Source: Qipengyuania flavescens (GTDB lineage: Bacteria > Pseudomonadota > Alphaproteobacteria > Sphingomonadales > Sphingomonadaceae). From it: a stretch of DNA of 64,000 bases. Numbering within the stretch: the first letter of the stretch is position 1; every line of letters begins with the position of its first letter. This document shows positions 9,060-30,463 of the stretch, in pieces. Below the pieces are notes generated by a model. That model saw nothing but the letters and a program-made list of their open reading frames with translations, was not told the origin of the DNA and ran no database searches. Where the stretch lies: assembly GCF_029688735.1 (NCBI RefSeq), contig NZ_JARULD010000003.1, positions 124,001 to 188,000 on the forward strand, in the 5' to 3' direction. A program made the position numbers and the translations under genes.

Positions 9060-11792
9060 TTAAAACTTGCCGCGCACGGTGATGCCGTAAGTCCGGGGTT
9101 CCGCAAGAAAAGCGGAGAACGTTTGTTGCGGAGCCACGAAAGGCGTGTTGAAGGCCACCTGCGTATACCCAACGTCAAACAAATTATTGACCCATCCCTC
9201 GATCGCGAAGCGATCCGCAATATTGGTCAGACCCACACGCCCGTTCACTACGACGAAGCTGTCCTGTTCCTTGCCGAAGAGCAGGTCGGAGCCGGTGTTG
9301 TAATCACCAGCCATACGAGCGTTCACGAAGACCAGGCCTTCGAGCCCACTGTCGCCGATTGGCGGCGTCCACGTAAGCGACGATGTTGCCACGATCTCTG
9401 GTGCATTCGACAGGTTGTCGCCTGGCAGCAAGCGTAGTGCGGGGTCGAGCGGTGCCCCGGTATCGTCCCCGATAAGATTGTCTTCAAAGCTCGTATCAGA
9501 ATAGGTGACGCCAAGGGTAATATCCAAATCACGAGCGGGCCGTAGATAGGTTTCGATCTCGACACCTTGAGCGATCAGACCTGGTGCAACTTCATCGGAA
9601 GAGCATGCACCGGTTGTCGCGCTTGCGTCTCTGTCGGCCCCGCCGAGATCGCTATCGCAACTATTGACCGTCTGCACAATGTAGAACGCCCCATTGAACG
9701 TGTTCAACTGGAAGTTACTGAACTCTTGCCGGAAGCCTGCAATGCTAACCCCGAACTCGCGTGTCGAGTATTTGAGGCCGATCTCATATGCATCGACTGT
9801 TTCTTCATCGAACTGCAGCGCGGCTGCCGAGATATTGGCCGGATCGAACGCAAGCGGATTTGACAGTGCAGACCTGTCGAGGTTGAAACCGCCCGCCTTG
9901 TAGCCGCGTGAATACGAACCGTAGACTAGCAGATCGGGAGTTGGCTTCCAGCTCAGGATAGCCGTGCCGGTAAACTCCTCTTCTTCGCGCGAGTCTTCGA
10001 GAGAAACTCCATCGAGCTCCGATGTCGAATTGCCTTGGCAGGAAAGGCTGATGATACCACCGGCCAGAGGTGCCAAAGTCGGAACACCCAGAAAGCCTCC
10101 GAGCAGATTGCGGTTTGTCGGACAAACCGTGTTGTCGTTGCGGAAAGTTGCGTCGAAGTCCTTGGTTTCGTTTGTATAACGAAGCCCCAGCGTCAAATCG
10201 AGCGTATCCGTGATCGCAAAGATATTATGCGTGAAGAACGCGAAGTTCTCACTCGTCTGATTGTAGACCTCGCTGACCGTTCCCAAATCGCTGATGCTTG
10301 CAAGGTTGTTGATACCTGCGAGGATCGCCGGGGTTGCAGCGCCGAATGCCGGGCTTCCGGTCAGCGTACCGTCCAATGCCGCCACGTTGGCACCCAGGCA
10401 ATTGGAAGCCCCCGGATTGACCAAAGCCGGGTTGATCGCGATAGCGATGCGGCACGCTACGAAATTGCCGTACTGGGTGCCGAACCGCAGATTGTCACGC
10501 ACCTGCAGTTCTTCATTGGCGTAATACGCGCCGATCAACCAATCGAGTTTGCCATCGAAGGCCTCACCGGTAAGGCGCAGTTCCTGAGTGAATGTTTCAA
10601 AGTCTCGAGCAAGAGCATTCTCGGTCGGAGCGCGGTAGAGAATATCGACAGTAGTGTAATCGGTGTCAGATCCCTGGCTGTTGGCATATTCACGGTAGCC
10701 CGTGATAGACGTCAACGTGACGTTCCCGAAATCCCAATTGATCTCAGCCGAAATACCGTAGTCTTCGGTTTCGCCTTCATAGCTTCTGCCCGGCGTAGGG
10801 TACAGGTCGCGGTTGAATGTATCCTGGGTGAGGGCACGCGGATCCTGCCCAAGCGCAAGCAACACGGGAACGATCGGATTTGCGGTACTCGTCAGGGCGG
10901 CCCCATCCGATGGCCTCGTAAAGGGATCAAATCCAGCGCTGATCCGTGCAAGCGGAGCAAACTCGGGCTGGACGAACGTCGCGGCACAGCACGCTTCGTC
11001 CTTTTTGGAATAATCCCCGACAAGGCGAATGGACAGGTCGTCATTGGGTTCGAACAGGAGCTGACCGCGGACCAGATAACGATCGCGATTGTTGATCGTC
11101 CCGCCGTTGGTAATATCGTTGTAGAAGCCGTCGCGCTCAAAGTAAACGCCGTCCACACGCGCAGCTACGGTGTCGCCAAGCGGAGCGTTTATGCCACCTT
11201 CGACGCGGATCGCATCATAGTTGCCATAAGTGAAGGCCCCGTATGCGCTGAAATCGAACTCGGGCGGTGCGGTGTAGATATTGATCAGGCCTGCCGATGA
11301 GTTCCGCCCGCCCAGAGTACCTTGGGGACCGCGAAGGATTTCGACCCTGTCGATAGGGCCGAGCTCACTCAGGGCGCTTCCCGAACGAGAGCGATAGACT
11401 CCATCGACAAAAACCGCGACCGAACTTTCCAGACCAGGGTTGTCGCCGACCGTGCCGATACCGCGAATACGCGCGGAACCGTTAGCTTCGTTGCCGGTGG
11501 AAGACACCAGCAGGGACGGTGCAACCTGGTTCAGCTCACGTATGTCGCTGGCGCCCGAATTCTGGAGGGTTTCTCCGGAAACAGCTGACACGGCGACTGG
11601 AACATCCGCCAAGACCTGCGATCGCCCTTGCGCGGTAACAATGATTACGTTTTGGTCTTCGACATCGGCCCCTTCAACCAGATCCGCATCGGGTTCGCCA
11701 ACATCCTGGGCGAAGGCGGCTGTCGGTGTGAAGGCAAGTGCCGCTGCCAATGCACCAAGGGCGCAATGGTGGCGTGATGGAAATCTTTTCAT
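9060..11792 (-). CDS. TonB-dependent outer-membrane receptor
   Basis: A 910-residue protein. A signal peptide ends near AAFAQ (about residue 28). A TonB-box-like stretch (NVIIVTAQGR) is followed by a plug domain with RGIGTVGDNPG and the conserved VEILRGPQGTLGGRNSSAG region. A beta-barrel of about 700 residues ends in an aromatic C-terminus (GKF). Such receptors import large or hydrophobic substrates using energy from TonB-ExbBD; in sphingomonads many serve hydrocarbons, terpenoids or aromatic compounds rather than iron. It lies last in the leftward P450/acyl-CoA dehydrogenase cluster after a 166-base gap, so it may also have its own promoter. Confidence 0.93.
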   Translation of the reverse strand: MKRFPSRHHCALGALAAALAFTPTAAFAQDVGEPDADLVEGADVEDQNVIIVTAQGRSQVLADVPVAVSAVSGETLQNSGASDIRELNQVAPSLLVSSTGNEANGSARIRGIGTVGDNPGLESSVAVFVDGVYRSRSGSALSELGPIDRVEILRGPQGTLGGRNSSAGLINIYTAPPEFDFSAYGAFTYGNYDAIRVEGGINAPLGDTVAARVDGVYFERDGFYNDITNGGTINNRDRYLVRGQLLFEPNDDLSIRLVGDYSKKDEACCAATFVQPEFAPLARISAGFDPFTRPSDGAALTSTANPIVPVLLALGQDPRALTQDTFNRDLYPTPGRSYEGETEDYGISAEINWDFGNVTLTSITGYREYANSQGSDTDYTTVDILYRAPTENALARDFETFTQELRLTGEAFDGKLDWLIGAYYANEELQVRDNLRFGTQYGNFVACRIAIAINPALVNPGASNCLGANVAALDGTLTGSPAFGAATPAILAGINNLASISDLGTVSEVYNQTSENFAFFTHNIFAITDTLDLTLGLRYTNETKDFDATFRNDNTVCPTNRNLLGGFLGVPTLAPLAGGIISLSCQGNSTSELDGVSLEDSREEEEFTGTAILSWKPTPDLLVYGSYSRGYKAGGFNLDRSALSNPLAFDPANISAAALQFDEETVDAYEIGLKYSTREFGVSIAGFRQEFSNFQLNTFNGAFYIVQTVNSCDSDLGGADRDASATTGACSSDEVAPGLIAQGVEIETYLRPARDLDITLGVTYSDTSFEDNLIGDDTGAPLDPALRLLPGDNLSNAPEIVATSSLTWTPPIGDSGLEGLVFVNARMAGDYNTGSDLLFGKEQDSFVVVNGRVGLTNIADRFAIEGWVNNLFDVGYTQVAFNTPFVAPQQTFSAFLAEPRTYGITVRGKF

Positions 11793-11933
11793 GTGCCTCT
11801 CCTCTAAGAATGTGCCCCATCCTAGGCACTAGTCGATGTTAGAAACGATGCCGATAAGCGCGTTTCATTTCAAGACTTGGTAGATGAATTGACGGATTAT
11901 TTCACATTGTCGACAAGCATGTGGCAAAAATGC

Positions 11934-11956: not shown

Positions 11957-11958
11957 TT

Positions 11959-13029
11959 CTAGTAGCCAGAAAGCTTGGAAAATCGGTCCTTTAACCAGCT
12001 CGACGAACCGAAGCTCTGCTCCAGCACGCGGGCGCGCTTGAGATAGAAGCCGACGTCGTACTCATCGGTCATGCCGATCCCGCCGTGCAGCTGGATGCCC
12101 TCGTTTGCCATGGTGTGCATAACGCGGTTGGCTTCCGTCTTGGCGATGGTCGCCGCGCGCGCCACGCCGAAGCCGGCATCGACGGCTTGCAGGCCCGCCT
12201 CGACCGCGCTGCGCATCTGGGCGAGATCGGCGAAGAGGTCCGCCATGCGGTGTTGCAGCGCCTGTAAGCTCGCCAGCACCTGGTTGAACTGCACGCGCTG
12301 CTTCAGATAGTCGAGCGTGTCGTCGAACACCTGCTGCGCCATGCCGAGCATTTCGGCTGCGGTGAGCACGCGCGCGCGGTCGAGCACGTCATCGAGCAGG
12401 CTGTCGCCGCCATTGGCGAGCTTCTCCGCCGCCGCGCCGTCGAAGGTGACGTCGGCATGGCTGCGCTGGTCGGTCAGCTTGCGGGTGGTGAGCGCGACGC
12501 CGTCGCCTTTCTCGACCAGGTAAAGCCCGTCCTTCGCCGCGACGACGAACAGGTCCGCACCATGCGCTTCATGGACGAAGGCCTTGGTGCCGCTCAGCTT
12601 GCCGTCGGACACACTGGTCTCGATCTTCGCAGGATCGTGGCTCGGCCCTTCGTCGACGGCGAGGGTGGCGATGGCCTCGCCGCTCGCCAGCCTGGGCAGC
12701 CACCTGGCCTTCTGCTCGTCGCTGCCGCCAAGAACGATCGCCGAGGCGGCGACGGTGTTCATCACCAGCGGGCTGGCGGTGAGCGTCTTGCCGAGTTCCT
12801 CGACGACGAGGCCCGCGGACAGGAAGCCGAAGTCCGACCCGCCATGCTCTTCGGGGATGATGACCCCGGCCCAGCCCATCTGCGCCATCGTCGCATAGGC
12901 GTCGCGGTTGAAGGCTTCGGGCTCGCCGCTGGCGCGGACCTTGCGGAATTCGGTGACCGGGCTTTCGTTGACGGTCCATTCGCGCGCCATGTCGCGCAGC
13001 ATTTCCTGTTCTTCGTTGAGAACGGCCAT
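11959..13029 (-). CDS. Acyl-CoA dehydrogenase, small partner subunit
   Basis: A 356-residue FAD enzyme of the acyl-CoA dehydrogenase family, shorter than the usual 380-400. N-terminal helices (MAVLNEEQEMLRDMAREW), VIIPEEHGGSDFG, a divergent middle beta domain (LATLAVDEGPS...), and a C-terminal FAD/interface region with EGIQLHGGIGMTDEYDVG. Such short, divergent subunits are typical partners in heterotetrameric dehydrogenases for steroid or other bulky CoA esters (FadE26-27, FadE28-29, Scd4AB types). It sits 18 bases after the large-subunit gene, consistent with a complex. Confidence 0.88.
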   Translation of the reverse strand: MAVLNEEQEMLRDMAREWTVNESPVTEFRKVRASGEPEAFNRDAYATMAQMGWAGVIIPEEHGGSDFGFLSAGLVVEELGKTLTASPLVMNTVAASAIVLGGSDEQKARWLPRLASGEAIATLAVDEGPSHDPAKIETSVSDGKLSGTKAFVHEAHGADLFVVAAKDGLYLVEKGDGVALTTRKLTDQRSHADVTFDGAAAEKLANGGDSLLDDVLDRARVLTAAEMLGMAQQVFDDTLDYLKQRVQFNQVLASLQALQHRMADLFADLAQMRSAVEAGLQAVDAGFGVARAATIAKTEANRVMHTMANEGIQLHGGIGMTDEYDVGFYLKRARVLEQSFGSSSWLKDRFSKLSGY

Positions 13030-13047: not shown

Positions 13048-14259
13048 TTACTGGTGGTCGAGCATGCCGAGCACGCGCTTGGCGATGATGTTGTTCTGGA
13101 TTTCGGTCGAGCCGCCATAGATGGTGGTCGCCTTGCCGAAGAGCCACGCGCGCACGGCCTCCAGCTCGCCGTCCGAAAAGCCGTCGCCTTCCCAGCCGAG
13201 GCCCTGCAACCCGCGGATTTCGATCAGCAATTCGCTGCGTTCCTGGCTCAGCTTGGTGCCGAGCTTCTTGAGCACAGAGCTGATTTCGGAGACGCCGCCA
13301 GCTGCCTTGCTCTCTTCCATCGCGCGGCGCGCGGTGAGCAGGAAGCTGTTCCAGCGGATTTCGAAATCAGCGATCTTGTCGCGCAGCACCGCATCGGCGA
13401 GTTCGCCGTCGGCGCCCGTCGGCTGGTACTTCTTGGCGATATCGCCAAGGCTCTGGCCCATGAGACGGGCGAGGCTGCCGCCGCCCGAGATATTGGTGCG
13501 CTCGTGCTGCAGCAGGCGCTTGCCGATGGTCCAGCCCTGGCCTTCCTCGCCGACGAGGTTTTCCTTGGGCACCTTCACGTCGGTGAAAAAGGTTTCGCAG
13601 AACGGGCTGGTCCCGCTGATCATGGTGATCGGGCGAACTTCGACACCGGGCTTGTCCATGTCGATCAGCATGAAGCTGATGCCCTTGTGCTTGTCGCTCT
13701 TGTCGGTTCGCACAATTGCAAAGCACTTGTCGGCCCATTGGCCGCCGCTGGTCCAGGTCTTCTGGCCGTTGACGAGGTAGTGGTCCCCCTTGTCCTCGGC
13801 AAAGGTCTGGAGGTTGGCAAGGTCGGAGCCGGCATTGGGTTCCGAATAGCCCTGGCACCAGCGGATCTCGCCGCGGGTGATCGGCGGGATGTGTTCCTTT
13901 TTCTGCGCCTCGTTCCCGTATTCGAGCAGCGTCGGCCCGAACATCATGACGCCCATGCCGCCGATCGGGTTGTAGGCACCCGCCTTGGCGAATTCCTGGT
14001 CGATGATCTTGGCCTGCGCCTTGGTGAGGCCGCCGCCGCCGTATTCCTTCGGCCAGGTGGGGGTGCCCCAGCCGCGCGCGCCCACGGCTTCGCGCCACTT
14101 GGTCTGCGCCGGCGTTTCATTGGTGGGGCCGTCCACGCCGGCCAGCGCGTTCGACTGGCCCTTGAGTTCGGCGGGAAAATTGTCCGCCAGAAACTGCTGC
14201 ACTTCCGCGCGGAAGGCGTCTTCGTCGGTCTGGGTTGCGGGCTCGATTTGTGTGGCCAT
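13048..14259 (-). CDS. Acyl-CoA dehydrogenase, large subunit
   Basis: A 403-residue acyl-CoA dehydrogenase. TPTWPKEYGGGGLTKAQAKI and WCQGYSEPNAGSDLANLQTF belong to the N-terminal and FAD-binding regions. VNGQKTWTSGGQWADKCFAI is the middle beta domain, and TTIYGGSTEIQNNIIAKRVL is the C-terminal dimer/FAD motif. It introduces a 2,3-double bond into an acyl-CoA. Gene order ferredoxin, large ACAD, small ACAD, TonB receptor suggests oxidation of a CoA-activated side chain after P450 hydroxylation. Confidence 0.92.
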   Translation of the reverse strand: MATQIEPATQTDEDAFRAEVQQFLADNFPAELKGQSNALAGVDGPTNETPAQTKWREAVGARGWGTPTWPKEYGGGGLTKAQAKIIDQEFAKAGAYNPIGGMGVMMFGPTLLEYGNEAQKKEHIPPITRGEIRWCQGYSEPNAGSDLANLQTFAEDKGDHYLVNGQKTWTSGGQWADKCFAIVRTDKSDKHKGISFMLIDMDKPGVEVRPITMISGTSPFCETFFTDVKVPKENLVGEEGQGWTIGKRLLQHERTNISGGGSLARLMGQSLGDIAKKYQPTGADGELADAVLRDKIADFEIRWNSFLLTARRAMEESKAAGGVSEISSVLKKLGTKLSQERSELLIEIRGLQGLGWEGDGFSDGELEAVRAWLFGKATTIYGGSTEIQNNIIAKRVLGMLDHQ

Positions 14260-14327: not shown

Positions 14328-14654
14328 TCAGTATTGTTGTTCGGGTAGGTGAAGAACCAATCCATCCAGCATCGGCTTCATCGGAATCTGACAGGCAAGG
14401 CGACTGTATTCAGTGGTGCCTTCGGCGAACTGCAAGAGGTCGGCCTCCATTCCATCATGCATAAGCCGACCCACCTTGTCGATCCATTCGGGATCGACAT
14501 GCACATGACAGGTCGCGCAAGCACATACCCCTCCGCAATCGCCATCGATACCCGGCACGTCATTGTATAGCGCCGCTTCCCTGGCTGTCTCGCCTTCTTC
14601 TATTTCGACCTCCCGTCGCTCACCATCGCTAGCCACGAACGTAATTTTGATCAT
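14328..14654 (-). CDS. [2Fe-2S] ferredoxin, adrenodoxin/putidaredoxin type
   Basis: 108 residues from MIKITFVASDGE. The cluster ligands are Cys40, Cys46, Cys49 and Cys88 (C-x5-C-x2-C...C), with the surrounding GDCGGVCACATCHVHV typical of P450-partner ferredoxins. It follows the P450 gene by 28 bases on the same strand and would pass electrons to it. No ferredoxin reductase gene is present in the window, so that protein must be encoded elsewhere. The chosen ATG at 14654 gives the standard family length; longer readings only extend into the P450 gene. Confidence 0.93.
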   Translation of the reverse strand: MIKITFVASDGERREVEIEEGETAREAALYNDVPGIDGDCGGVCACATCHVHVDPEWIDKVGRLMHDGMEADLLQFAEGTTEYSRLACQIPMKPMLDGLVLHLPEQQY

Positions 14655-14682: not shown

Positions 14683-15945
14683 TCAGCGGGCGCGGAGCCG
14701 CACCGGCAGCCTGGTGATTCCGCGGACGAGGTTTGAAAAAAGACGCTCTGGTTCACCTGTAACCTCGACCCGGGAAAAGCGCTTGTGAATTTCTTCCCAG
14801 ATGATCCGCAGCTGCAGTTCCGCGAGCCGGTTTCCCATGCAGCGGTGAATGCCATAGCCGAATGAGAGGTGATGGCGCGGATTTTTGCGGTCGATGATGA
14901 ACTGGTCCGCGCGCTCGATAGCACTCTCGTCGCGGTTGCCTGACAGGTACCACATCACCACCTTGTCGCCCTTCTTGATCTGTTTGCCGCCGATCTCCCA
15001 ATCTTCCAGCGCGGTGCGGCGCATATGAGTGAGGGGGGTCTGCCAACGGATGATTTCCGGAACCATTTTGCTAATGAGCGAAGGATCCGCGTCGAGTTTC
15101 GCGTACTCGTCCGGGCTTTGGTTCAAGGCGAGCACGCCGCCGCTGATGGAATTGCGTGTTGTGTCGTTTCCACCGACGATCAGCAGCATAAGATTGCCGA
15201 GAAACTCGAGGAACGGCATGTCGCGCGTGGCGGGAGAATGAGCCATCATCGAGATGAGGTCGTTCTTCGGCTCCTCGTTTATCCGTTCGTCCCACAGAGT
15301 CTTGAAATACATCGCGCAACCGATGAGTTCTTCGCGCCGCGCCTCGTAGGATTCGACGATCCCGGTTTCAGGTGCCGCAGTTGCTACATCGGACCAGCGC
15401 GTCAGCTTGCGCCGCTCCTCCCAAGGGAAATCAAACAAGGTTGCCAGCGTCATCGTCGTCAACTCGATCGCAACCTTATCCACCCAGTCGAAATCTTCGC
15501 CAATCGGGAGTTCATCGAGAATCTCTCCCGCGCGCTTGCGGATGATCGGCTCGAGCAGTTGCAGGTTGGACGGAGCCACTGCCGGAGTCACCGCCTTGCG
15601 CTGCTGATCGTGCTTGGGCGGGTCCATCGCTATGAACATTTCAAGTTCGAGCGCGCCTTCCACCGAATGCATGTCCTGGATTGCAATTCCGCCTAGCTTC
15701 GCTTCCGAAGAGAAGACCTTATGATTGGTGTCCACCGACATGATGTCGTCGAACTTGGTAATGGACCAGTAAGGGCCGACATAGCTCTCGCGGCAGTAGT
15801 GGACAGGTTCTTCGGCGCGCAACCTGTCAAAAAATAGACCGATGGTATCGTTCTGAAACAGGCTTGGCCGGGCCACGTCGATTTCCTCGATCGGAATTGA
15901 CGCGATCCTCGCCGCGGCATCCGGCTCGGCGATCTGGCTGTCCAT
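14683..15945 (-). CDS. Cytochrome P450, CYP153-like hydroxylase
   Basis: 420 residues, soluble bacterial class I P450. The oxygen-binding I-helix is LLIVGGNDTTRNS (GGNDTT at 258-263), the E-x-x-R pair is Glu297/Arg300, and the haem loop is FGYGIHRCMGNR with ligand Cys369. GGNDTTRNSISGGVLALNQ and the C-terminal HRCMGNRLAELQLRIIWEEI stretch are characteristic of the CYP153 alkane/cycloalkane/terpene hydroxylase group. It is probably the first oxygenation step of the pathway, fed by the adjacent ferredoxin. It is transcribed divergently from the GntR regulator gene. Confidence 0.85.
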   Translation of the reverse strand: MDSQIAEPDAAARIASIPIEEIDVARPSLFQNDTIGLFFDRLRAEEPVHYCRESYVGPYWSITKFDDIMSVDTNHKVFSSEAKLGGIAIQDMHSVEGALELEMFIAMDPPKHDQQRKAVTPAVAPSNLQLLEPIIRKRAGEILDELPIGEDFDWVDKVAIELTTMTLATLFDFPWEERRKLTRWSDVATAAPETGIVESYEARREELIGCAMYFKTLWDERINEEPKNDLISMMAHSPATRDMPFLEFLGNLMLLIVGGNDTTRNSISGGVLALNQSPDEYAKLDADPSLISKMVPEIIRWQTPLTHMRRTALEDWEIGGKQIKKGDKVVMWYLSGNRDESAIERADQFIIDRKNPRHHLSFGYGIHRCMGNRLAELQLRIIWEEIHKRFSRVEVTGEPERLFSNLVRGITRLPVRLRAR

Positions 15946-16146
15946 AAGAACTATTCCTTCTACATCTCAGGCCTGATCGGCCTTCAGTCATCCTTAAGGG
16001 AGACATCTCGTGCAGTCAATAAATCGTATACTCTTTTAGTCCCTTGCAGACACCAATCCCATCGGATAGTGTGCCGATCCAGCGAAGGTTTGCTAATATC
16101 CTTATACTGTTTATTCGAGAGGTGCGGGTGTGCTGATGAGTGGCGG
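15946..16146. promoter_or_regulatory. Divergent promoter region of the two catabolic operons
   Basis: About 200 bases between the P450 start and the GntR start. TCGTATACTC (about 16024) and CCTTATACTG (about 16100) share a TATAC core and may be GntR operator half-sites or -10 elements; both readings are inference. The bracket position suggests one regulator controls both operons. Confidence 0.4.
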
Positions 16147-16875
16147 ATGCCGGCGATGAAGAAGGCCAAGCGTGCCCTTTCTCTTGCGCAAAGCATCGTG
16201 AGGGACATCGAGGCGGGTCGCCATAACCCGGGTGACAGGCTTCCGCGCGAGGATGAAATGCTCGCGCGTTACGAGGTTGCGCGCGCAACTTTGCGGGAGG
16301 CTTTGCGGTTCCTGGAATTGCAAGGGGTCATCCATCTCCAGCTCGGCCGTGGTGGAGGTCCCGTCGTAGCCCGTCCGCAGACCGGCGATTTTGCAAGCAG
16401 TTTGTCATTGATTCTGCATTTCATGGAAGCCGATTTGCGTGGTTTGCTTGAATTGCGCGAAGCAATTGCTCCCGATGTCGCAGGGTATGCAGCCCAGCGT
16501 GCAACTACCGCTGATCTCAGCGCGTTGGCAGGGTGTCTGGCGGAATTGAGGCATCATGAAGCCTCTGATCAATTCGAGGAACTTAATCGCAGATTTCACG
16601 ACTTGTTGGGTTGGGCGAGCGGCAATCCGCTGTTCGGTTTGCTGACCTCTGCGATGCATCTGTTGACCCGCGAGTTTTCCCATTCGCTGGGATATTCGGC
16701 ACAGGAACGGGCGGTGCAGATGAAGTTTCTGGTGCGGGTGCTCGAGGCAGTGCGGACTGGCGACAGCGCCGCGGCCCGTCAAGCAATGAGCCGGTTGGTG
16801 GCCGGCTCTGCCGTCTATCTTTCGGAGCGCAGTCCCGAGCTGGTCTCGCAGCGGGTGCGGTGGGGGCAGCTGTAG
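16147..16875 (+). CDS. GntR-family regulator, FadR/FCD subfamily
   Basis: 242 residues from the ATG at 16147 (16156 also possible). The N-terminal winged helix has LAQSIVRDIEAGRHNPGDRL then PREDEMLARYEVARATLREA and LRFLELQGVIHLQLGRGGG. The C-terminal FCD domain begins DLRGLLELREAIAPDVAGYA and has helices with ELNRRFHDLLGWASGN. FCD domains bind acyl-CoA-like or acidic ligands with a metal. It stands first before the rightward catabolic operon and divergent from the P450 operon, so it is the likely pathway-specific switch. Confidence 0.9.
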   Translation: MPAMKKAKRALSLAQSIVRDIEAGRHNPGDRLPREDEMLARYEVARATLREALRFLELQGVIHLQLGRGGGPVVARPQTGDFASSLSLILHFMEADLRGLLELREAIAPDVAGYAAQRATTADLSALAGCLAELRHHEASDQFEELNRRFHDLLGWASGNPLFGLLTSAMHLLTREFSHSLGYSAQERAVQMKFLVRVLEAVRTGDSAAARQAMSRLVAGSAVYLSERSPELVSQRVRWGQL

Positions 16876-18086: not shown

Positions 18087-18152
18087 ATGGCTTACGCCAA
18101 AGGTCATGAATTGCGCCGCCCCGTAGAGCCTCTCAGAGCGCTGGGGCAATGA
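18087..18152 (+). other. Short ORF, probably the displaced 5' end of the Coq4-like gene
   Basis: A 21-codon frame ([21 protein letters not shown]) follows a strong GGAGG ribosome site and ends in TGA at 18150-18152, overlapping the next ATG. Its tail PLRALG runs naturally into [10 protein letters not shown] of the Coq4-like protein, as in full-length Coq4-like proteins. One missing G in the GGGG run at about 18143-18146 would explain the break. It could also act as a leader ORF giving translational coupling. Confidence 0.55.
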
Positions 18153-21740: not shown

Positions 21741-22831
21741 TGGATTTCGGACTTTCGCAAGACCAAGAGATGCTCTGCGACGCGATCAGCCGCACTCTTG
21801 CTGATACTTGTCCGCTCGATCATGTGCGCGAATGCGCGGAGGGCTCGGTTCCCTTCAGCGACAACGTGCGTTCGGCGCTGGGCGAAATCGGCATTTGGGG
21901 AATGATGGTTCCCGAGCAACATGACGGGCTCGGGATGACAATGCTCGATGCCGCCGCTGTGGCCGAGCAGCTCGGCTATGCCGTCGCGCCGGTGCCTTTT
22001 ATCGGTGCCCATGTACTGGCACCCCTTGCGCTGGCACAGGGCGGTAGCGAGGAGTTGAAGGCGCACTGGCTGCCGAGGATAGCGAAGGGCGAGGCGCAAA
22101 TCGCCGTCGCGATCGCGGAAACGGTGGAGATCCGGGACCGGGCAGGCGTGGACTTCGACGGCGCAAAGCTCGACGGAACGGCTTTGTTCGCGCTCGACTT
22201 CCTGGAAGCCGACGCGTTTCTGGTAGCCGATACCGCCGGTCGTATGCACTTCGTAGCTGGCGATGCTGCGGGTCTGGAGAAGGTTGCTCTCAAAACGATC
22301 GACCGCACCCGGAGCGTAGGGGAGCTGCGGTTTTCTGGCGTAGCGGGCGAGGCTCTCGCGGACGATGGTGGGGCCACAGTCAGGCGCCTGCGGGACGCCG
22401 GCCGGGTGCTCCTGGCCGCCGATAGCCTCGGTGCGGGCCAGGCTATGATCGAAAAAGCGGTCGACTATGCCGGGCAGCGCGAACAGTTCGGACGAGTGAT
22501 CGGCAGCTTCCAGGCGGTCAAGCATATGTGCGCGGAAATGGCTGCCCGCCATGAACCATGCCGTTCGCTGGTCTGGTATGCCGCCCATGCGTTCGATGCG
22601 ACGCCCGACGAGGCTTCGCTGGTGGCATGCCATGCCAAATCACATACGGGCGAAGTCCACCGTTTTGTCGCCCGAACCTCAACCGAGGTGCATGGGGGGA
22701 TGGGTTTTACCGATCTCCTAGGTCTGCATTTCTGGTTCAAGCGAATCGGTTTCGACCGCCAGGTTCTGGGAAGTCCCGAAGCGGTCCGGGCCGAAGCAGC
22801 GGCCTTGCAGGGGTGGACGCAGGTCGCATGA
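21740..22831 (+). CDS. Acyl-CoA dehydrogenase, small subunit of second pair
   Basis: 363 residues. MDFGLSQDQEMLCDAISRTL and MMVPEQHDGLGMTMLDAAAV mark the N-terminal domain. The middle domain is short and divergent; TSTEVHGGMGFTDLLGLHFW is the C-terminal flavin motif. Size and divergence match the small partner at 11959-13029, so the island has two parallel heteromeric dehydrogenases, perhaps acting on successive side-chain lengths or stereoisomers. Confidence 0.9.
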   Translation: MDFGLSQDQEMLCDAISRTLADTCPLDHVRECAEGSVPFSDNVRSALGEIGIWGMMVPEQHDGLGMTMLDAAAVAEQLGYAVAPVPFIGAHVLAPLALAQGGSEELKAHWLPRIAKGEAQIAVAIAETVEIRDRAGVDFDGAKLDGTALFALDFLEADAFLVADTAGRMHFVAGDAAGLEKVALKTIDRTRSVGELRFSGVAGEALADDGGATVRRLRDAGRVLLAADSLGAGQAMIEKAVDYAGQREQFGRVIGSFQAVKHMCAEMAARHEPCRSLVWYAAHAFDATPDEASLVACHAKSHTGEVHRFVARTSTEVHGGMGFTDLLGLHFWFKRIGFDRQVLGSPEAVRAEAAALQGWTQVA

Positions 22832-22894: not shown

Positions 22895-24505
22895 GTGATC
22901 GACTGGAACCTTGGCGACATCCTTGATGCAATCGAACCTGCGGTCCCGGAAGATGCTCCGGCGCTGATTCACGGCGACCGGATCATTAGCTGGCCCGAAA
23001 TGTCGAAGCGTTCGAACAATTTGGCGCGCAATCTGCGCGCGCAAGGTGCAGGCGACGGGGCGAAGATAGCCTTCTACATGCGCAACCGTTCCGAATACGG
23101 GGAATTGATGGCCGCGTGCTTCAAGGGCCGCCTCACGCACGTGAACATCAATTATCGTTACCGTCCCGAGGAGGTTTTCTACATCTTCGACGATTCCGAT
23201 AGCGAGGTAATTGTTTACAGTTCCGAGTTCCGCGACTGCATTCTTGAACTGAAGGAACGGTTGACCAAGGTTCATACATTTGTAGAAATCGGCGATGCTT
23301 CGCAGATCGCTTCCTTCGCGCTTCCTTACGAAAAACTTGTAGAAGGTAACGGCGCGCCTCTCGATATCGAGCGTTCTCCCGATGACCTGCTGTTCATATA
23401 TACAGGCGGTACCACCGGCATGCCCAAGGGCGTGATGTGGCGACACGATGATATGCGCAAGGCTCAGCTCGACGCGCAAAAGCTGCTGGGTCCGGTTCCC
23501 CAGACCATGGAGGAAATGGTGGCCCTGGTGAAGCAGGGCGAGCTTGCGCGCATCACTTTGCCGGCGTGCCCGCTGATGCATGGAACCGGGTTCATTACTG
23601 CTATCGGCACGCTCATGTCGGGCGGGGCCATCGTCACGCTGTCCGATCCATCCTTCGACGCGGAAGAATTGTGGGATGCGGTGGACCAGCACAAGGTGCA
23701 GAGCATCGCCATTGTCGGTGACGCTTTTGCCAAACCCATGCTGCAGGCGCTGGACGCCCACCCGAAGCGCTGGGACACGAGCAGCCTGATTTCGATCATC
23801 TCGTCCGGCGTCATGTGGAGTAAACAGGTAAAGGCGGGCCTGTGCAAACATATCCCCCAGGTCATCCTCATGGACAGTTTTGGCGCTTCGGAAGGGCTGG
23901 GCTACGGCTTGTCGGTGACGACCGCACAGGGCGGCACCAACACCGCGAAATTCGGGATCGGGGAATTTTGCGACGTATTCGACGAGAACGACCGGAAGGT
24001 CGAGGCGGGGAGCGGCGTGCCCGGCTTTATTGCCCGCAAGGGCGCAATCCCCACAGGATACTACAAGGACCCGGAAAAGTCGGCCAAGACTTTCAGGACG
24101 ATCGATGGCGTGCGTTACTCCATCCCGGGCGACTGGTGCCGGGTGGAATCCGATGGAAGCCTGACCTTGCTGGGCCGCGGCAGCGTCTGCATCAACACCG
24201 CAGGTGAAAAGGTTTACCCCGAGGAGGTGGAGGAAGTGCTCAAAACCCATCCCGCCATTGCCGACGCGCTTGTCGTCGGGGTGCCTGACGAAAAATGGGG
24301 CGAAGCGGTGACCGCTGTGGTGCATTTGACCCAGGATGCGGACTTCGACGCGCAAGCGATCAAGGATCACGTGCGCCAGCAACTGGCAGGTTACAAAACG
24401 CCCAAGGCGATTTGCCCAACGCAAACCGCCTTGCGCGCGTCAAACGGCAAGGCGGATTATACTACGGCTAAAGACATCGCGAAAGCGGGTGCCGGGGCCT
24501 CGTGA
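22895..24505 (+). CDS. Acyl-CoA synthetase (AMP-forming, FadD type)
   Basis: 536 residues from a GTG with AAGGAGAGAGG upstream. The AMP-binding signature is IYTGGTTGMPKGV (168-180), the adenine-binding region is MDSFGASEGLGYG, and the hinge/C-domain has LGRGSVCINTAGEKVYPEEV. The catalytic Lys is in RASNGKADY. It closely resembles the FadD19-type ligases that activate sterol side-chain or cyclic acids. It would form the CoA ester used by both acyl-CoA dehydrogenase pairs. Confidence 0.92.
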   Translation: MIDWNLGDILDAIEPAVPEDAPALIHGDRIISWPEMSKRSNNLARNLRAQGAGDGAKIAFYMRNRSEYGELMAACFKGRLTHVNINYRYRPEEVFYIFDDSDSEVIVYSSEFRDCILELKERLTKVHTFVEIGDASQIASFALPYEKLVEGNGAPLDIERSPDDLLFIYTGGTTGMPKGVMWRHDDMRKAQLDAQKLLGPVPQTMEEMVALVKQGELARITLPACPLMHGTGFITAIGTLMSGGAIVTLSDPSFDAEELWDAVDQHKVQSIAIVGDAFAKPMLQALDAHPKRWDTSSLISIISSGVMWSKQVKAGLCKHIPQVILMDSFGASEGLGYGLSVTTAQGGTNTAKFGIGEFCDVFDENDRKVEAGSGVPGFIARKGAIPTGYYKDPEKSAKTFRTIDGVRYSIPGDWCRVESDGSLTLLGRGSVCINTAGEKVYPEEVEEVLKTHPAIADALVVGVPDEKWGEAVTAVVHLTQDADFDAQAIKDHVRQQLAGYKTPKAICPTQTALRASNGKADYTTAKDIAKAGAGAS

Positions 24506-26139
24506 GCCATTCGCCCCCTCCTGACTATGATGTCGTAATCGTCGGGGCCGGGTTCAGCGGAATATACCTGCTTTACAAGCTGCGTCAGGCGGGGTTCGAT
24601 GTTCTGCTGGTAGACGCAGCGGAGCAGCCGGGCGGAATCTGGTACTGGAACCGCTATCCGGGAGCACGGGTCGATTCCCAGGTTCCACTTTACGAATTTT
24701 CCATTGCGGAAGTATGGAAAAGCTGGACGTGGAGCGAACGATTTCCAGGCTGGGAAGAACTGCGCGCCTATTTCCTCCACGTCTGCGATACGCTCGACCT
24801 CTGGCCGGCAATGCGAATGAAAACACGGGTCGAAAGCGCGCCGTTCGATGAAGACACCGCCTGCTGGCGATTGAAGCTCGACGATGGCGGAAAAGTAAGC
24901 GCGCGTTTCCTCTTGCCGGCGCTGGGGTTCGCCTCGAAACCCTACATTCCCGATATCCCGGGCCTTAGCGATTTCGAAGGCGAATGGTGCCATACCGCCC
25001 GCTGGCCGCAGGAAGGCATCGACCTTTCCGGCCGCCGGATCGCCCTGATCGGCACGGGTGCCAGCGGCGTACAGGTGGCGCAGGAGGCGGCAAGCTGTGC
25101 GGAGCAGCTGACGCTTTTTCAGCGAACCCCGATTCTCGCCCTTCCCATGCGGCAGGAAAAACTGGACGCTGATCGTCAGCTTCGCGAAAAATCCGAATAT
25201 CCCGCTGTCTTCCAGAAAAGGCTTACGACAAGTGGCGGTTTCGAATGCCAATCGCTGGACATCTCGGCCCTGGCTGTGACCGAGGAAGAGCGGACTACGC
25301 ATTTCGAGGATTTGTGGCAGCGAGGAGGGTTGCGCTTCTGGTATCATAATTTCGCTGACATACTGACGAACGAGGACGCCAATCGCCACGCCTACGAGTT
25401 CTGGCGTGACGAGGTGCGCGAGCGGATCTGCGACCCGACCATTGCCGAGAAGCTCGCTCCCGATGAGCCGCCACATCCCTTCGGGACCAAGCGACCATCG
25501 CTCGAACAGAATTATTACGAGATCTTCGCACAAGACAATGTGACGCTGGTCGATCTGAACGACACCGCGATCACTCGCGTCACCGAGGCCGGGATAGAAA
25601 CAGCCACTGGCATGATCCCGTGCGATCTCATTGTCTTCGCGACCGGCTTCGATGCCGGTCGTGGCGGGCTCATCGACATGAACATCACCGGCCGCGGTGG
25701 GCTGGCGCTGGCAGAAGCATGGAAGAGTGAGATCAAAGCCTATCTGGGCATGGCCGTCGCCCAATTTCCGAACATGCTGTTCGCCTACGGCCCGCTCAGC
25801 CCTTCAGGCTTTTCCAACGGTCCGACAAGCGCCGAAATCCAGGGTGACTGGATCTGCGATTTCCTGATCTGGCTGCGCGATAACAGGATCGGCCTTTTCG
25901 AAGCCGATGCGCTGGCCGAGCGAAGCTGGACCGATATGGTCGCCCAAGTAGGGTCGATGACGCTCTTCCCCAAGGCTGAATCGTGGTACATGGGCGCCAA
26001 TATTCCCGGCAAACCCCGACAACTGATCAATTTCCCCAGCGTATCTGGTTACGCCGATCTATGCCACGATGTCGCACGGCACGATTATCGTGGTTTTATC
26101 AGGAATACACTATCCGGTATGGAGACTGCGCCGAAATGA
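24502..26139 (+). CDS. Flavin Baeyer-Villiger monooxygenase
   Basis: 545 residues. Two Rossmann motifs, GAGFSG (15-20, FAD) and GTGASG (184-189, NADPH), flank the Baeyer-Villiger fingerprint F158-x-G-x-x-x-H164-x-x-x-W168. GGIWYWNRYPGARVD (44-58) is the conserved CHMO/CPDMO-type motif. The enzyme inserts oxygen next to a ketone to give an ester or lactone. The next gene encodes an alpha/beta hydrolase that could open that product. GTG start overlaps the synthetase stop (GTGA). The ketone may come from alcohol oxidation after P450 attack or from retro-aldol cleavage. Confidence 0.93.
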   Translation: MSHSPPPDYDVVIVGAGFSGIYLLYKLRQAGFDVLLVDAAEQPGGIWYWNRYPGARVDSQVPLYEFSIAEVWKSWTWSERFPGWEELRAYFLHVCDTLDLWPAMRMKTRVESAPFDEDTACWRLKLDDGGKVSARFLLPALGFASKPYIPDIPGLSDFEGEWCHTARWPQEGIDLSGRRIALIGTGASGVQVAQEAASCAEQLTLFQRTPILALPMRQEKLDADRQLREKSEYPAVFQKRLTTSGGFECQSLDISALAVTEEERTTHFEDLWQRGGLRFWYHNFADILTNEDANRHAYEFWRDEVRERICDPTIAEKLAPDEPPHPFGTKRPSLEQNYYEIFAQDNVTLVDLNDTAITRVTEAGIETATGMIPCDLIVFATGFDAGRGGLIDMNITGRGGLALAEAWKSEIKAYLGMAVAQFPNMLFAYGPLSPSGFSNGPTSAEIQGDWICDFLIWLRDNRIGLFEADALAERSWTDMVAQVGSMTLFPKAESWYMGANIPGKPRQLINFPSVSGYADLCHDVARHDYRGFIRNTLSGMETAPK

Positions 26140-27107
26140 ATGAAATGAAACCAATCCACGACGGGTCAACAGATATTGATCCCGTATGGGCCGGCGACGG
26201 GGCGGATATACCCGAATGGTTCGCCTGGGCGCTGAGCGTGCCCCGTGAGGAAGGCTTCGTAGAGGTTGGTGGCGCGCGGGTGCATTATCTTCGCTGGGGC
26301 AGGCGTGACCGGCCCAAATTGCTCATGACTCACGGTTTTCTCGCCCATGCCCGCTGCTTTGCCTTCATCGCACCGTACCTTGCCGAAGACTACGACGTGG
26401 TGGCGTTCGATCTGGCCGGTATGGGCGATAGCGAGATGCGCGGCGTGGCCGATATAGCTGCGCGGGGAAAGGAATTTGTCGAGATCAGCGAAGCGCTCGA
26501 TTTGTTTGCGGATGGAAGCAGACCGACGATCATCGCCCATAGCTTCGGCTCGGGTGCAGCGCTGACCGCCGTTTCCCAATCGCCGGATGCCTTCGCCGGC
26601 GTTATTGTCTGCGATCTCATGGTGATGCGGCCCGAAAAGCTGGAGAAATACTGGACCATGGGCAGATCGAGCCCCGGGTCGGGTAATCCTGACAAACCGG
26701 TGCGACGCTACCCCACCTACGAAGCGGCGCGCGAGAGGTATATCCTGTCGCCGCCGCAGGCAGTTGGTGAGCCGTTCCTGATGGATTACATGGCCTATCA
26801 CTCTCTCCGCCGCGATGGCGAGGAGTGGACATGGAAGTTTTCTCCCGAAGTGTTCCGGCGCAGCAACAAGCCCGACGAATGGCTGACAGTAGGCCAGAGG
26901 CTGGTCGATGCGCCCGGGCGCAAAGCGATTGTGTACGGCGAGAAAAGTCAGCTCTTTGATCGCGATTCCGCCCGCTATATCCGGGAACTGGGAGGGGGAA
27001 AGATACCAATTGTTGCAGTGCCCGATGCACGCCATCATCTCATGCTGGATCAGCCGCTCGCGTTCGTCGCTGCGCTTCGGGCGGTACTGGCCTTTTGGAG
27101 CCTCTGA
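26136..27107 (+). CDS. Alpha/beta-hydrolase (candidate esterase/lactonase of the BVMO product)
   Basis: 323 residues, start overlapping the monooxygenase stop as ATGA. The oxyanion loop is THGF (65-68), the nucleophile elbow is IIAHSFGSG with Ser136, FDLAGMGDSE follows strand 4, and the base is in DARHHLMLDQP. Position directly after a Baeyer-Villiger enzyme suggests it hydrolyses the resulting ester or lactone to a hydroxy acid, but the substrate is inferred from context only. Last gene of the rightward operon. Confidence 0.88.
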   Translation: MNEMKPIHDGSTDIDPVWAGDGADIPEWFAWALSVPREEGFVEVGGARVHYLRWGRRDRPKLLMTHGFLAHARCFAFIAPYLAEDYDVVAFDLAGMGDSEMRGVADIAARGKEFVEISEALDLFADGSRPTIIAHSFGSGAALTAVSQSPDAFAGVIVCDLMVMRPEKLEKYWTMGRSSPGSGNPDKPVRRYPTYEAARERYILSPPQAVGEPFLMDYMAYHSLRRDGEEWTWKFSPEVFRRSNKPDEWLTVGQRLVDAPGRKAIVYGEKSQLFDRDSARYIRELGGGKIPIVAVPDARHHLMLDQPLAFVAALRAVLAFWSL

Positions 27108-27110
27108 GAT

Positions 27111-27465: not shown

Positions 27466-27526
27466 ATTTTGCAGTAAGCGGCGGAGCCAATTATCGTCGC
27501 ACTGAAGAGATGGGAAGGGATGCTAT

Positions 27527-30463
27527 ATGACACTGAGAGCGATGGTGCTCGCCACTTCGGCCATCTTGGCTTGGCCGCAGATGGCTTTAGCGCAGGATTC
27601 CACAACTGATGAGGCGGAACCCCAAGGATCCGTAATCATCGTGACGGCCCAACGCCAATCTCAAAGTCTGCAAGAGGTGCCGATCGCGGTCAGTGCCTTC
27701 GATGCTACGGCTCTCGAAAGCCAGCAGATCGAAAACGCTGCTGACCTTCAATTGACGCTCCCGAACGTCTCATTTTCGAAGGGCAACTTCACCGGGTCGT
27801 CCTTCACCATCCGTGGTATCGGCGATCTTTGTGTTGGTGTGACGTGTGACGCAGCGACGGCTATCCATATCAATGGTTCCCCTCTTTTTGGTACCCGGCT
27901 GTTCGAAACAGAATATTTTGACCTTGAGCGAATTGAGGTCCTACGGGGGCCGCAGGGCACCCTCTTCGGCCGCAACGCTACCTCGGGTGTTGTCAACCTT
28001 GTGACAGCCAAGCCTGACCTCGGTTCTTTCGGCGCGGCCGGAGAGTTCGAGTATGGGAATTACAACAGCATCAAGGCCGAGGGGGTGGTCAATGTCCCGA
28101 TCGTCGATTCTATCGGCGTTCGGGTAGCCGGATTCTTTCTGAATCGCGACGGTTACACCACAAACCTTTTCGACAATTCGGATGTCGACGACCGAGACAT
28201 GTACGCTGTTCGTGGTTCTCTTCGTTTTGAACCCGGTGCCGATACCACTCTCGACTTCATGGCATATTATTTCAGGGAAGATGACACCCGTTTACGTAAT
28301 CAAAAGCAGGCCTGCCAGCGTGACCCGCTCGGCGTGCTGGGTTGTCTGAACAATCGCCGCGACTTTGACATCACCAATGCCAATTCCACAGTCGGCGCAA
28401 CGCTCAGTTCGCAAGAGTTCTTCGCTATTCAGGGAATTCCCTCAGTACTGGGATTGGGAAGCCTGTACGGCCCCGATGCATTTGCAGGATTCGATAAGCC
28501 CGACGATGTGCGCACGGTAAACACGGCGTATACTCCATTCTATTTTGCCGATGAAGTGCAGCTACAGGCCCGTCTCGAGCAGCGCATCGGAGCTATGACA
28601 CTGACTGCAACCGGTCTTTATCAGGACACCGAAGTCGATTCCCGGCAGGACTACTTTCTGGGCATTCAGGATCGTACCGCCTTTGCTACGGCCTTGAACG
28701 TGTTGTCCGGCTTCGCGGCCAACGGTTTGCCTACCGGCCTCCCCGCACCTGCACCGGCGTTCGTGCCAGGTTCGTCGGCGTATTTTACCCCGATTGTGGA
28801 GGCTCTCATCCCCAATGGCCCAGGGGGCGTATTGTGCACCTCCGATAACGATGATGGGAACAGGGGCGCGTTCGAAGGTAATGTATTGTGCGGCGAAACG
28901 CCGCTATCCTTCGACAGGTCTTCAGAGCAACGCGAATCCTGGAGCGGCGAAATCCTCCTTTCCAGTGATTTCGACGGAGCATTCAATTTCCTGCTCGGAG
29001 GGATCTATGCAAAGTCCAAGACTACCGACAACAGTTACTATGTAAACTCATTCGCGCTTGACTACGCCAGTGCCATTCTGGGATCGTTTGGTACTTTGGC
29101 AGGCGGTGCACCGCCATCCTACTTCGCAACATCCATGTACCGCAACAATTCTCTCGAGGCTAATCTTGAGAGCTTCGGTGTGTTCGGGGAGATCTACGTC
29201 GACCTGACCGAGCGTCTGACCTTCACCGGAGGTTTGCGGTATAACGACGACAAGAAAGACGTGACTGCGCGCACGACCTTGATTAGCTTCCTCAATCCTT
29301 ACGCGAATGACGGGGAGCCGTTCGACAGCCCGATCACTCCCTTAACCGGTCCCTCTGGTCTTTTTGATGCCGATCCTGGTACGCCAGGTGAGCAGCTGAC
29401 GCAATTTAGAGAAGTAGGTTTCGATGAAATAACCGGGCGTGCGGTGCTCGACTACGAAGTTACGCCTGACAATTCGATTTACGCATCTTATGCCAGGGGC
29501 TATAAATCCGGGGGTATCAACCCGCCCCTTTCGCCCGTTTTCGATGTGGCTGAAAGCTTCGGATCAGAAACCATCGACGCATTTGAAATCGGATCGAAAA
29601 ATACCTTTGCGAATGGCGCACTGCAATTAAACGCTACTGCATTCTACTATAAGTATAGCGGGTTGCAGCTTAGCCGCATCGTCGCCCGTACCTCAGTTAA
29701 TGATACTATCGATGCCGATATCTGGGGTGTGGAACTAGAGTCCGTTATCCGGCCCGATCCCGATTGGCTTGTCAACTTGACGTTCAGTTATCTCAACGCG
29801 GAAGTTGCCGGCGACCAGTTCTTCTCCAATCCGCGCGACCCGGGTGGCGGCGATCCTGATGCCGTCATCATCAAGGATATCAGCAACGGTGCTAATTGTG
29901 CCGTAACCGGGCCAGCCCCCGGCGTGGCCGACGCATTCGTCGCCGGAGTGAACGCAGCTCTGGGTCTTCGTGGTCCCGAAGAATTTCCTAACGACGGCAA
30001 TCTTGCGTCAAGCGGCGCATTCAGCATTTGCGATGTCTTGGCCGGAGCCGTTCCGGCGGGCAGCGGCCTTGCGGTATTAAGCCCTGGCGTAGAGGTCAAC
30101 TTAAAAGGGAACAAGTTGCCGCAGGCCCCCGAAATGAAGGTTTCGATGGGTGTGCAGTACACCGCCACTTTCGACAATGGCATGACTCTGGTTCCTCGCG
30201 TGGACGTAGCGCTGACTGGTGAGCAATACGGCAATATCTTTAACGGCAGGGTCAACCGGATCGAGCCATTCGTGCAAGCCAACGCGATCGTGCAGTTGAA
30301 CAGTGCGGATGAGCGTTGGTTCGTGCGCGGATTTGTTCAGAACATTTTCGACAGCAGCTCGGTGACAGGCTTGTACTTGACCGACGCATCCTCGGGGAAT
30401 TTTACCAATATCTACACTTTGGATCCTCGTAGATATGGTGTTGCTTTGGGGTTCAGTTTCTAA
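27527..30463 (+). CDS. TonB-dependent outer-membrane receptor
   Basis: 978 residues. Signal peptide about 1-23 (cleavage after MALAQ). SVIIVTAQRQSQSLQEVPIA contains the TonB-box/plug start; RGIGDLCVGVTCDAATAIHI and IEVLRGPQGTLFGRNATSGV are plug motifs. A long barrel ends in the expected Phe (LGFSF). Paired Cys in extracellular-loop-like segments (VLCTSDND...NVLCGETP; NGANCAV...AFSICDVL) suggest loop disulfides. It flanks the catabolic island opposite the receptor at 9060, so both may feed the same pathway. It is not next to iron or cobalamin genes. Confidence 0.93.
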   Translation: MTLRAMVLATSAILAWPQMALAQDSTTDEAEPQGSVIIVTAQRQSQSLQEVPIAVSAFDATALESQQIENAADLQLTLPNVSFSKGNFTGSSFTIRGIGDLCVGVTCDAATAIHINGSPLFGTRLFETEYFDLERIEVLRGPQGTLFGRNATSGVVNLVTAKPDLGSFGAAGEFEYGNYNSIKAEGVVNVPIVDSIGVRVAGFFLNRDGYTTNLFDNSDVDDRDMYAVRGSLRFEPGADTTLDFMAYYFREDDTRLRNQKQACQRDPLGVLGCLNNRRDFDITNANSTVGATLSSQEFFAIQGIPSVLGLGSLYGPDAFAGFDKPDDVRTVNTAYTPFYFADEVQLQARLEQRIGAMTLTATGLYQDTEVDSRQDYFLGIQDRTAFATALNVLSGFAANGLPTGLPAPAPAFVPGSSAYFTPIVEALIPNGPGGVLCTSDNDDGNRGAFEGNVLCGETPLSFDRSSEQRESWSGEILLSSDFDGAFNFLLGGIYAKSKTTDNSYYVNSFALDYASAILGSFGTLAGGAPPSYFATSMYRNNSLEANLESFGVFGEIYVDLTERLTFTGGLRYNDDKKDVTARTTLISFLNPYANDGEPFDSPITPLTGPSGLFDADPGTPGEQLTQFREVGFDEITGRAVLDYEVTPDNSIYASYARGYKSGGINPPLSPVFDVAESFGSETIDAFEIGSKNTFANGALQLNATAFYYKYSGLQLSRIVARTSVNDTIDADIWGVELESVIRPDPDWLVNLTFSYLNAEVAGDQFFSNPRDPGGGDPDAVIIKDISNGANCAVTGPAPGVADAFVAGVNAALGLRGPEEFPNDGNLASSGAFSICDVLAGAVPAGSGLAVLSPGVEVNLKGNKLPQAPEMKVSMGVQYTATFDNGMTLVPRVDVALTGEQYGNIFNGRVNRIEPFVQANAIVQLNSADERWFVRGFVQNIFDSSSVTGLYLTDASSGNFTNIYTLDPRRYGVALGFSF

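Follow-up and report, generated by a model that had tools for sequence, protein, structure and literature searches.

What compound is broken down by the two divergent operons found in a 64,000-nucleotide stretch of the Qipengyuania flavescens genome (contig NZ_JARULD010000003.1, positions 124,001 to 188,000; the whole stretch is called the window here), and do their genes form a single pathway? An earlier note, made from the sequence alone, described linked catabolic genes for a CYP153-like P450, for CoA activation, for paired acyl-CoA dehydrogenases (ACADs) of the steroid type, for a thiolase-fold protein with DUF35 and for a Baeyer-Villiger monooxygenase (BVMO), and proposed a bulky alicyclic substrate. 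Gene families were assigned from the list of open reading frames (ORFs) and from Pfam scans of the window (Table 1); they agree with the families and gene order given in the note and support the linked unit. With confidence slightly above even, the genes are interpreted here as a mobile operon for the catabolism of a hydrophobic compound in which a ring or branch at the beta carbon keeps the carbon chain from undergoing normal beta-oxidation.

Relatives of the thiolase-fold protein, a predicted aldolase as argued below, were searched for in 298 genomes at the family level (E ≤ 1e-60). A match was obtained in 47 genomes, with at least 88% identity in 17, the Q. flavescens genome included, while the 4 further genomes from the window's genus in this draw all lacked a match that close. 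When species genomes were scanned with an alignment of the aldolase, 158 relatives were confirmed, which shows the cluster to be widespread in public genomes. The best 80 of these 158 loci were analysed; they span Erythrobacter, Qipengyuania, Sphingopyxis, Novosphingobium, Hyphomonas, Henriciella and other genera. Gene presence was scored by tblastn (at least 60% identity, half-length cover), and because the loci end ~10 kb from the aldolase gene or at contig ends, the per-gene counts are lower bounds. The NMO-family flavoprotein, the aldolase and the DUF35 protein were present in 80 of 80 loci and the GntR regulator in 79, followed by the large (78) and small (76) subunits of the core ACAD pair, the acyl-CoA synthetase FadD (74), the P450 (73), the BVMO (71), the alpha/beta hydrolase (69) and the ferredoxin (64).

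Gene order was compared in the 58 loci of at least 20 kb, with genes counted at 55% identity or more. The rightward gene set co-occurs in other genomes, as the earlier note had suggested looking for: nine core genes (GntR, NMO, thiolase-fold, DUF35, two ACADs, FadD, BVMO and hydrolase) were arranged alike, in order and strand, in 56 of the 58 loci, and the divergent P450 accompanied 54 of these 56. The remaining two loci were without BVMO and hydrolase at the 55% threshold. The window has near-identical counterparts in 16 of the 80 loci (L068-L083), 14 of them among the 58, so there are fewer independent cases than 56/58 suggests. The nine-gene rightward core is a real conserved unit, beyond chance. 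The note's picture of one invariable set, with two operons and a pair of receptors, did not hold: the left ACAD pair (at the 60% threshold, large subunit in 29 of the 80 loci, small in 26), TonB receptor 1 (at least 14), TonB receptor 2 (at least 22) and Coq4 (39) are optional and lie outside the conserved core. Coq4 sits between the NMO and aldolase genes in its 39 loci, and in the other 41 these two genes are no more than 200 bp apart; its absence from those 41 led to the rejection of Coq4 as an essential enzyme.

The function of the thiolase-fold protein is central to the proposed route. Its nearest relatives in the PDB are, in order, 6ok1, then 4u4e and 9myr. By the residue motifs given in the accessible part of PMC12329534, we read 6ok1 as TcLtp2 and 9myr as CtSal (the PDB record names for the two are 'Lipid-transfer protein' and 'Nonspecific lipid-transfer protein'). 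In the alignment to solved relatives, Gly occupies the position of the thiolase nucleophilic Cys, the motif Tyr-Asp-Cys-Phe aligns with the Tyr-Asp-His-Phe of 6ok1, and the second acid position is His, versus Tyr in 6ok1 (Tyr344 in the paper's numbering) and Gln352 in CtSal. This Gly/Tyr/Cys/His set (residues 80, 290, 292 and 340 counted from window position 18841, each one higher if the Met at 18838 is counted) was found in 80 of 80 loci. In the same source, as far as accessible, Gly at the nucleophile position excludes thiolysis, and in CtSal the Tyr is the base and the Cys the acid. Because the nucleophilic Cys is gone and the Tyr/Cys/His site is kept in all 80 loci, we read the protein as a predicted retro-aldolase, related to but separate from the steroid enzyme Ltp2; the fold given in the earlier note stands, with retro-aldolase as the better reading of the function.

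The protein shares with the Ltp2/Sal type the loss of the nucleophilic Cys and the catalytic Tyr of the YDxF/Y motif, both constant across the 80 loci. The cluster resembles the Ltp2-ChsH1/ChsH2 and Sal-Shy systems in its Cys-less thiolase-fold aldolase with a DUF35 protein and in the paired ACADs and CoA ligase nearby. It differs from Ltp2 (Tyr-His-Tyr) and Sal (Tyr-Cys-Gln) in its Tyr-Cys-His residues: Cys and His stand where Ltp2 proper has YDHF and Tyr344, and where Sal proper has Gln352 and a Cys3-His1 zinc finger in DUF35, the cluster has His and a C4-type zinc ribbon (C-x2-C-x10-C-x2-C), a cysteine pattern like that of TcChsH2 and unlike that of Shy (PMC12329534, accessible part). A tree of 32 proteins, several of them on long branches (including 9myr and 4u4e), set the group of the window (13 rows, 99/99; 90/83 for the 16 rows that include wider relatives) apart from the 6ok1 group (13 rows, 100/98). 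Tyr-Cys-His was also seen in distant relatives from G409, Rhodococcus DMU1, G432 and Rhodococcus ZPP; in the Prescottella and M. rufum relatives Gly or Ser replaces the Cys, and many relatives at 36-43% identity have Tyr in place of the His.

The other enzymes were compared with solved structures and curated models. The best PDB relative of the P450 was 3rwl (CYP153A7, 622 bits), and the heme Cys motif FGYGIHRCMG was found with a pattern that we take to be the P450 signature, which upholds the CYP153-like assignment of the note. A CYP153A-type P450 with a [2Fe-2S] ferredoxin is shared with CYP153 alkane hydroxylase systems; the differences are that no ferredoxin reductase was seen in the cluster and that the P450 is divergent from the aldolase/BVMO operon. 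The nearest PDB chains to the large core ACAD were 4x28, presumably FadE26-FadE27, and 6wy8. Each ACAD pair consists of adjacent unlike subunits, one without a middle-domain match, as in heterotetrameric steroid-type ACADs, of which we assume the missing middle domain to be a mark; an alpha2beta2 assembly is predicted from this arrangement. No NCBIfam equivalog cut-off was reached by the ACADs. FadD scored 698 bits against NF005863 (cut-off 543), and this family model and PF00501 matched although a strict AMP-motif pattern, presumably the standard one, did not. The BVMO was confirmed by its match to 6jdk, which we take to be a Parvibaculum BVMO, by Pfam, and by the fingerprint FEGEWCHTARWP and two Rossmann motifs, assumed here to be the type I marks (FxGxxxHxxxW(P/D) for the fingerprint). 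Matches of the hydrolase in the PDB were weak and, among those listed, mostly haloalkane dehalogenases, which is uninformative about its subtype.

From these families we infer the reactions, their order and the substrate. The P450 and ferredoxin would hydroxylate the terminal carbon, general dehydrogenases would take the alcohol to the acid, and FadD would activate the acid to its CoA ester. The paired ACAD would give the enoyl-CoA, to which a hydratase encoded outside the cluster would add water, forming a tertiary alcohol. The thiolase-fold/DUF35 pair would then split this alcohol by retro-aldol cleavage, releasing acetyl-CoA (or propionyl-CoA) together with a ketone, which the BVMO would convert to a lactone or ester for the hydrolase to open. 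The accessible part of PMC11321319 describes a steroid precedent in which hydration yields a tertiary alcohol whose cleavage requires an aldolase and leaves a 17-keto steroid. On the retro-aldolase reading the next genes of the operon make sense, because the product of aldol cleavage is a carbonyl compound; a BVMO and a hydrolase placed immediately behind the aldolase would suit a pathway that cuts the released ketone.

Several observations weigh against this route. No hydratase, alcohol dehydrogenase (ADH) or aldehyde dehydrogenase (ALDH) was found in the cluster in the window. The crotonase-family hydratase that adjoins the regulator on Sphingobium cloacae pSCLO_2 has homologues at 94% in just two of the 80 loci, L145 and L146, and no close orthologue in the Q. 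flavescens genome (best 41%, as in cluster-free genomes). The NMO flavoprotein, whose best curated NCBIfam match is FabK (247 bits, under the cut-off of 453), is kept in 80 of 80 loci and has no place in the route. The BVMO scored 680 bits with 6jdk versus ~367-415 bits with cyclohexanone monooxygenases. In a class-level comparison covering 8 of the 23 other genomes with a BVMO match, one locus had a close aldolase (G804, 81%, with DUF35 adjoining) and one a 25% relative together with ACADs (G440); five gave no aldolase match, and G968 had P450, ferredoxin, NMO and GntR genes and no aldolase in the stretch examined. A distant version of the cluster in a genome of another family of the class (G546) speaks for the route by its NMO, aldolase, DUF35, ACAD pair, FadD, BVMO and P450 at 54-79% identity, and has a zinc alcohol dehydrogenase preceding the aldolase and an IclR gene in place of GntR; against the route, neither GntR nor the end hydrolase had a match in it, and its NMO lies ~6 kb from the aldolase. 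With an incompletely substituted beta carbon, the aldolase product could also be an aldehyde, as with Sal (PMC12329534, accessible part). Concerning the hydratase, Pfam scans found no MaoC hydratase in the cluster; MaoC proteins turned up in all 19 genomes searched, whether these had the cluster or not, and so say nothing on this point. In favour of the route stand the linked crotonases, with homologues at 71% also found in G968 and G804, at 12-15 kb from the BVMO; the missing hydratase may be a crotonase encoded elsewhere.

As to the substrate, which is probably either an alkylcycloalkane or a methyl-branched hydrocarbon, alkyl-substituted cycloalkanes are put forward tentatively as the likeliest class, and the bulky alicyclic compound of the earlier note is possible and not required, since an acyclic methyl-branched compound fits the same chemistry. 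For an alkylcyclohexane substrate, the reaction predicted for the aldolase would equal that of (1-hydroxycyclohexan-1-yl)acetyl-CoA lyase (EC 4.1.3.35), reportedly a step of the cyclohexaneacetate pathway of Arthrobacter CA1; we know of no gene for this lyase. Acyclic 3-methyl-branched or isoprenoid hydrocarbons (phytol- or phytane-like) are a class nearly as probable, for which the same aldolase-then-BVMO logic would lead from a methyl ketone through an acetate ester to a shortened alcohol; phytol is converted to 6,10,14-trimethylpentadecan-2-one. The far closer relation of the BVMO to 6jdk than to cyclohexanone monooxygenases speaks for this class, as do the poor growth of a Dietzia CYP153 mutant on pristane (PMC12472514, accessible part) and the BVMO of the sphingomonad Caenibius tardaugens, which turns the methyl ketone of progesterone into an acetate ester (PMC12239570, accessible part). 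However, pristane hardly induced the two Dietzia BVMO genes (PMC12472514, same part), the Parvibaculum BVMO also converts cyclohexanone (PMC12398983, accessible part), and the solved aldolase relatives of known function work on steroids (PMC12329534, accessible part). In Cupriavidus basilensis, a BVMO relative at 49% is accompanied by hydrolase, ADH, ALDH and glutarate dioxygenase genes, in what looks like an operon for cyclic-ketone (cycloalkanone) breakdown, and this also argues against an acyclic substrate. Cycloalkanone catabolism (BVMO, lactonase, ADH and ALDH) is similar in having a BVMO followed by an alpha/beta hydrolase, but in the Qipengyuania cluster, which has no ADH or ALDH, the ketone is expected from the aldolase and not from an alcohol dehydrogenase. 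A BVMO protein search (1697 matches at E ≤ 1e-150; among 120 listed, 1 named cyclopentanone and 3 cyclohexanone monooxygenase, names that are probably automatic) left cyclic versus acyclic undecided, as did the class-level loci. We lean weakly toward alkylcycloalkanes over methyl-branched alkanes.

It is improbable that the genes serve two pathways, an alkane-acid set of P450, FadD and ACADs and a separate BVMO/hydrolase pair brought into one operon by chance or co-regulation. Such a division would account for the 7 of 8 other BVMO loci without a close aldolase and for the aldolase relatives in G409 and G432 with no BVMO match within ~15 kb, but not for the constant order and strand of the core in several alphaproteobacterial genera or for the spacing of -4 to 80 bp in the window's rightward operon. 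Degradation of the side chain of a steroid or polycyclic terpenoid appears more improbable still. The nearest aldolase relative, 6ok1, read as TcLtp2, the 4x28 match of the large core ACAD, CYP125-type P450s among the more distant PDB matches and the existence of a steroid BVMO in a sphingomonad (PMC12239570, accessible part) would favor it; on the other side, the P450 is CYP153 and not CYP125, the aldolase group is apart from the TcLtp2 clade, and the cluster, unlike the Ltp2/Sal steroid systems, lacks a MaoC hydratase and continues with a BVMO and hydrolase. KshA_C, which as a marker covers ring breakdown only, was found in 3 of 15 cluster-bearing genomes (all of the 17 with a close aldolase except G152 and G176). 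Steroid ring breakdown is unlikely because KshA was absent from the other 12, the window's own genome included, and steroid ring catabolism was set aside as unsupported. The pdc progesterone cluster of C. tardaugens is alike in that a sphingomonad BVMO makes an ester from a ketone side chain; it is a small cluster of four genes with a luciferase-like monooxygenase, and no aldolase, ACADs or FadD are among the genes described in the accessible part of PMC12239570.

The aldolase-to-BVMO operon appears to be mobile. By its repeats and integrase, the cluster is the right-end cargo of a predicted element of ~111 kb integrated in tRNA-Leu(CAG) (G000:C7:49,750-160,940, or about -74,250 to 36,940 in window coordinates), so that the mobile unit extends beyond the 9060-30463 region of the earlier note. 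Two copies of the repeat CCTCTTCTGG(G)CACCA, separated by 111 kb, are present in the genome, one at the tRNA-Leu(CAG) 3' end (C7:49,750) and one at C7:160,926 (window 36,926). A tyrosine integrase adjoins the tRNA gene, and this arrangement with flanking direct repeats is that of an integrative element; the integrase is the same at 399 of 408 aligned positions (stop included) as that of an element in G086, whose repeats are 37.4 kb apart. Of the F-type transfer genes in the element, TraC scored above and TraG below its model cut-off, and the short version in G086 perhaps relies on other elements to be transferred. The right junction is common to five other loci, which match the window at 96.8-99.7% DNA identity as far as 36,940-36,947 and differ from it beyond that point. 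The repeat is found 2 or 3 times around the cluster in five other cluster-bearing genomes, with the copies 25 to 98 kb apart. Two genomes of the same genus without the cluster have a single copy, in tRNA-Leu(CAG) (G078), and two copies 17 kb apart (G146). A tRNA-Leu(CAG) stands at a repeat also in G033, G208 and G086, and no tRNA was found at the part of the copies examined in G058 and G062. Gene transfer is the probable means by which the trait spreads, given that several genera have near-identical copies and that an integrative element carries the cluster. Full cores are annotated on plasmids, despite a near-match plasmid search in which no record covered 80% of the core. Genome G033 carries two versions of the operon (C1:755449 and 1961521), one near-identical to the window and the other at ~75-79% DNA identity.

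No description of this gene combination was found in the open-licence literature searched (titles and abstract starts; most subscription papers lie outside it), and to that extent the statement in the earlier note that no such cluster was described stands, although the cluster itself is common in public genomes. Each kind of enzyme is already known. The cluster offers testable genes for the aerobic passage of a branched or ring-bearing beta carbon in hydrocarbons, and through its aldolase the chemistry known from steroid side chains would reach further substrates. It is conceivable, though we consider it rather unlikely, that the Tyr/Cys/His aldolase is a third type and the missing (1-hydroxycycloalkyl)acetyl-CoA lyase gene, and that the operon is a mobile aldolase-plus-Baeyer-Villiger route for alkylcycloalkanes among sphingomonad genera on the tRNA-Leu element.

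Table 1. Features of the two divergent operons and their surroundings, in window coordinates.
Feature	Position	Strand	Basis and remarks
UbiB/ABC1-family protein	4186..5787	-	UbiB model 320 bits, under cut-off 488; recurrent neighbour
Second alpha/beta hydrolase and 4HBT thioesterase	7115..8412	+	Recurrent neighbours; relatives near core in other loci
TonB-dependent receptor 1	9060..11792	-	PF00593/PF07715; optional
Small subunit, acyl-CoA dehydrogenase pair 1	11959..13029	-	PF02771 and PF00441, without PF02770 (middle-domain) match
Large subunit, acyl-CoA dehydrogenase pair 1	13048..14259	-	PF02770/02771/00441
[2Fe-2S] ferredoxin, presumed P450 partner	14328..14654	-	PF00111
CYP153-family P450, presumed terminal hydroxylase	14683..15945	-	Nearest PDB chain 3rwl
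Divergent promoter region	15946..16068		TATAC at 16027, second copy at 16103
GntR/FCD regulator	16069..16875	+	PF07729, PF00392; actual start may be further in
NMO-family flavoprotein	16926..18068	+	PF03060
Coq4-like protein, accessory	18149..18841	+	PF05019
Thiolase-fold retro-aldolase (predicted; Ltp2/Sal relative)	18838..20010	+	Nearest PDB 6ok1, 4u4e, 9myr; active-site residues
DUF35 protein (ChsH2-type zinc ribbon and OB fold), presumed aldolase partner	20007..20483	+	PF01796, PF12172
Large subunit, core acyl-CoA dehydrogenase pair	20490..21740	+	Nearest PDB 4x28, 6wy8
Small subunit, core acyl-CoA dehydrogenase pair	21740..22831	+	Pfam, without middle-domain match
Acyl-CoA synthetase FadD (PRK07798 subfamily)	22895..24505	+	NCBIfam NF005863, PF00501
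Type I Baeyer-Villiger monooxygenase (BVMO)	24502..26139	+	Nearest PDB 6jdk; fingerprint
Alpha/beta hydrolase, presumed lactonase/esterase	26145..27107	+	PF12697
TonB-dependent receptor 2	27527..30463	+	Pfam; optional
EmrAB-type efflux (OEP, MFS, HlyD) and MlaD-like protein	30904..36690		Relatives near core in other loci
Right end of element (copy of tRNA-Leu 3' end)	36926..36940	+	Repeat CCTCTTCTGG(G)CACCA

The divergent gap between the P450 and GntR genes is 123 bp, and TonB receptor 2 starts 419 bp past the hydrolase gene. The two TATAC copies in and near the gap are 76 bp apart and are candidate regulator sites; when the divergent intergenic region was aligned across loci, short AT-rich patches alone were conserved. 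TonB receptor 2 has a 54% relative near the cluster in Sphingobium cloacae, and in Sphingopyxis fribergensis an alkane monooxygenase and a rubredoxin lie ~7.5 kb from the P450, which speaks for the proposed hydrocarbon route.

The UbiB-like (4186-5787), Coq4-like (18149-18841) and MlaD-like (35740-36690) genes recur around the core elsewhere, ABC1 proteins lying near it in other loci as well, and these neighbours perhaps take part in the handling of membrane-bound hydrophobic compounds. A further, weaker Coq4-family match lies in the same genome at G000:C6:911012-911536. To the left, a transposase with rve/HTH_21 domains, which we take to be of the IS3 type, occupies 2831-4060, and the 152 bp at 3909-4060 have an apparent near-identical copy at 8740-8891.

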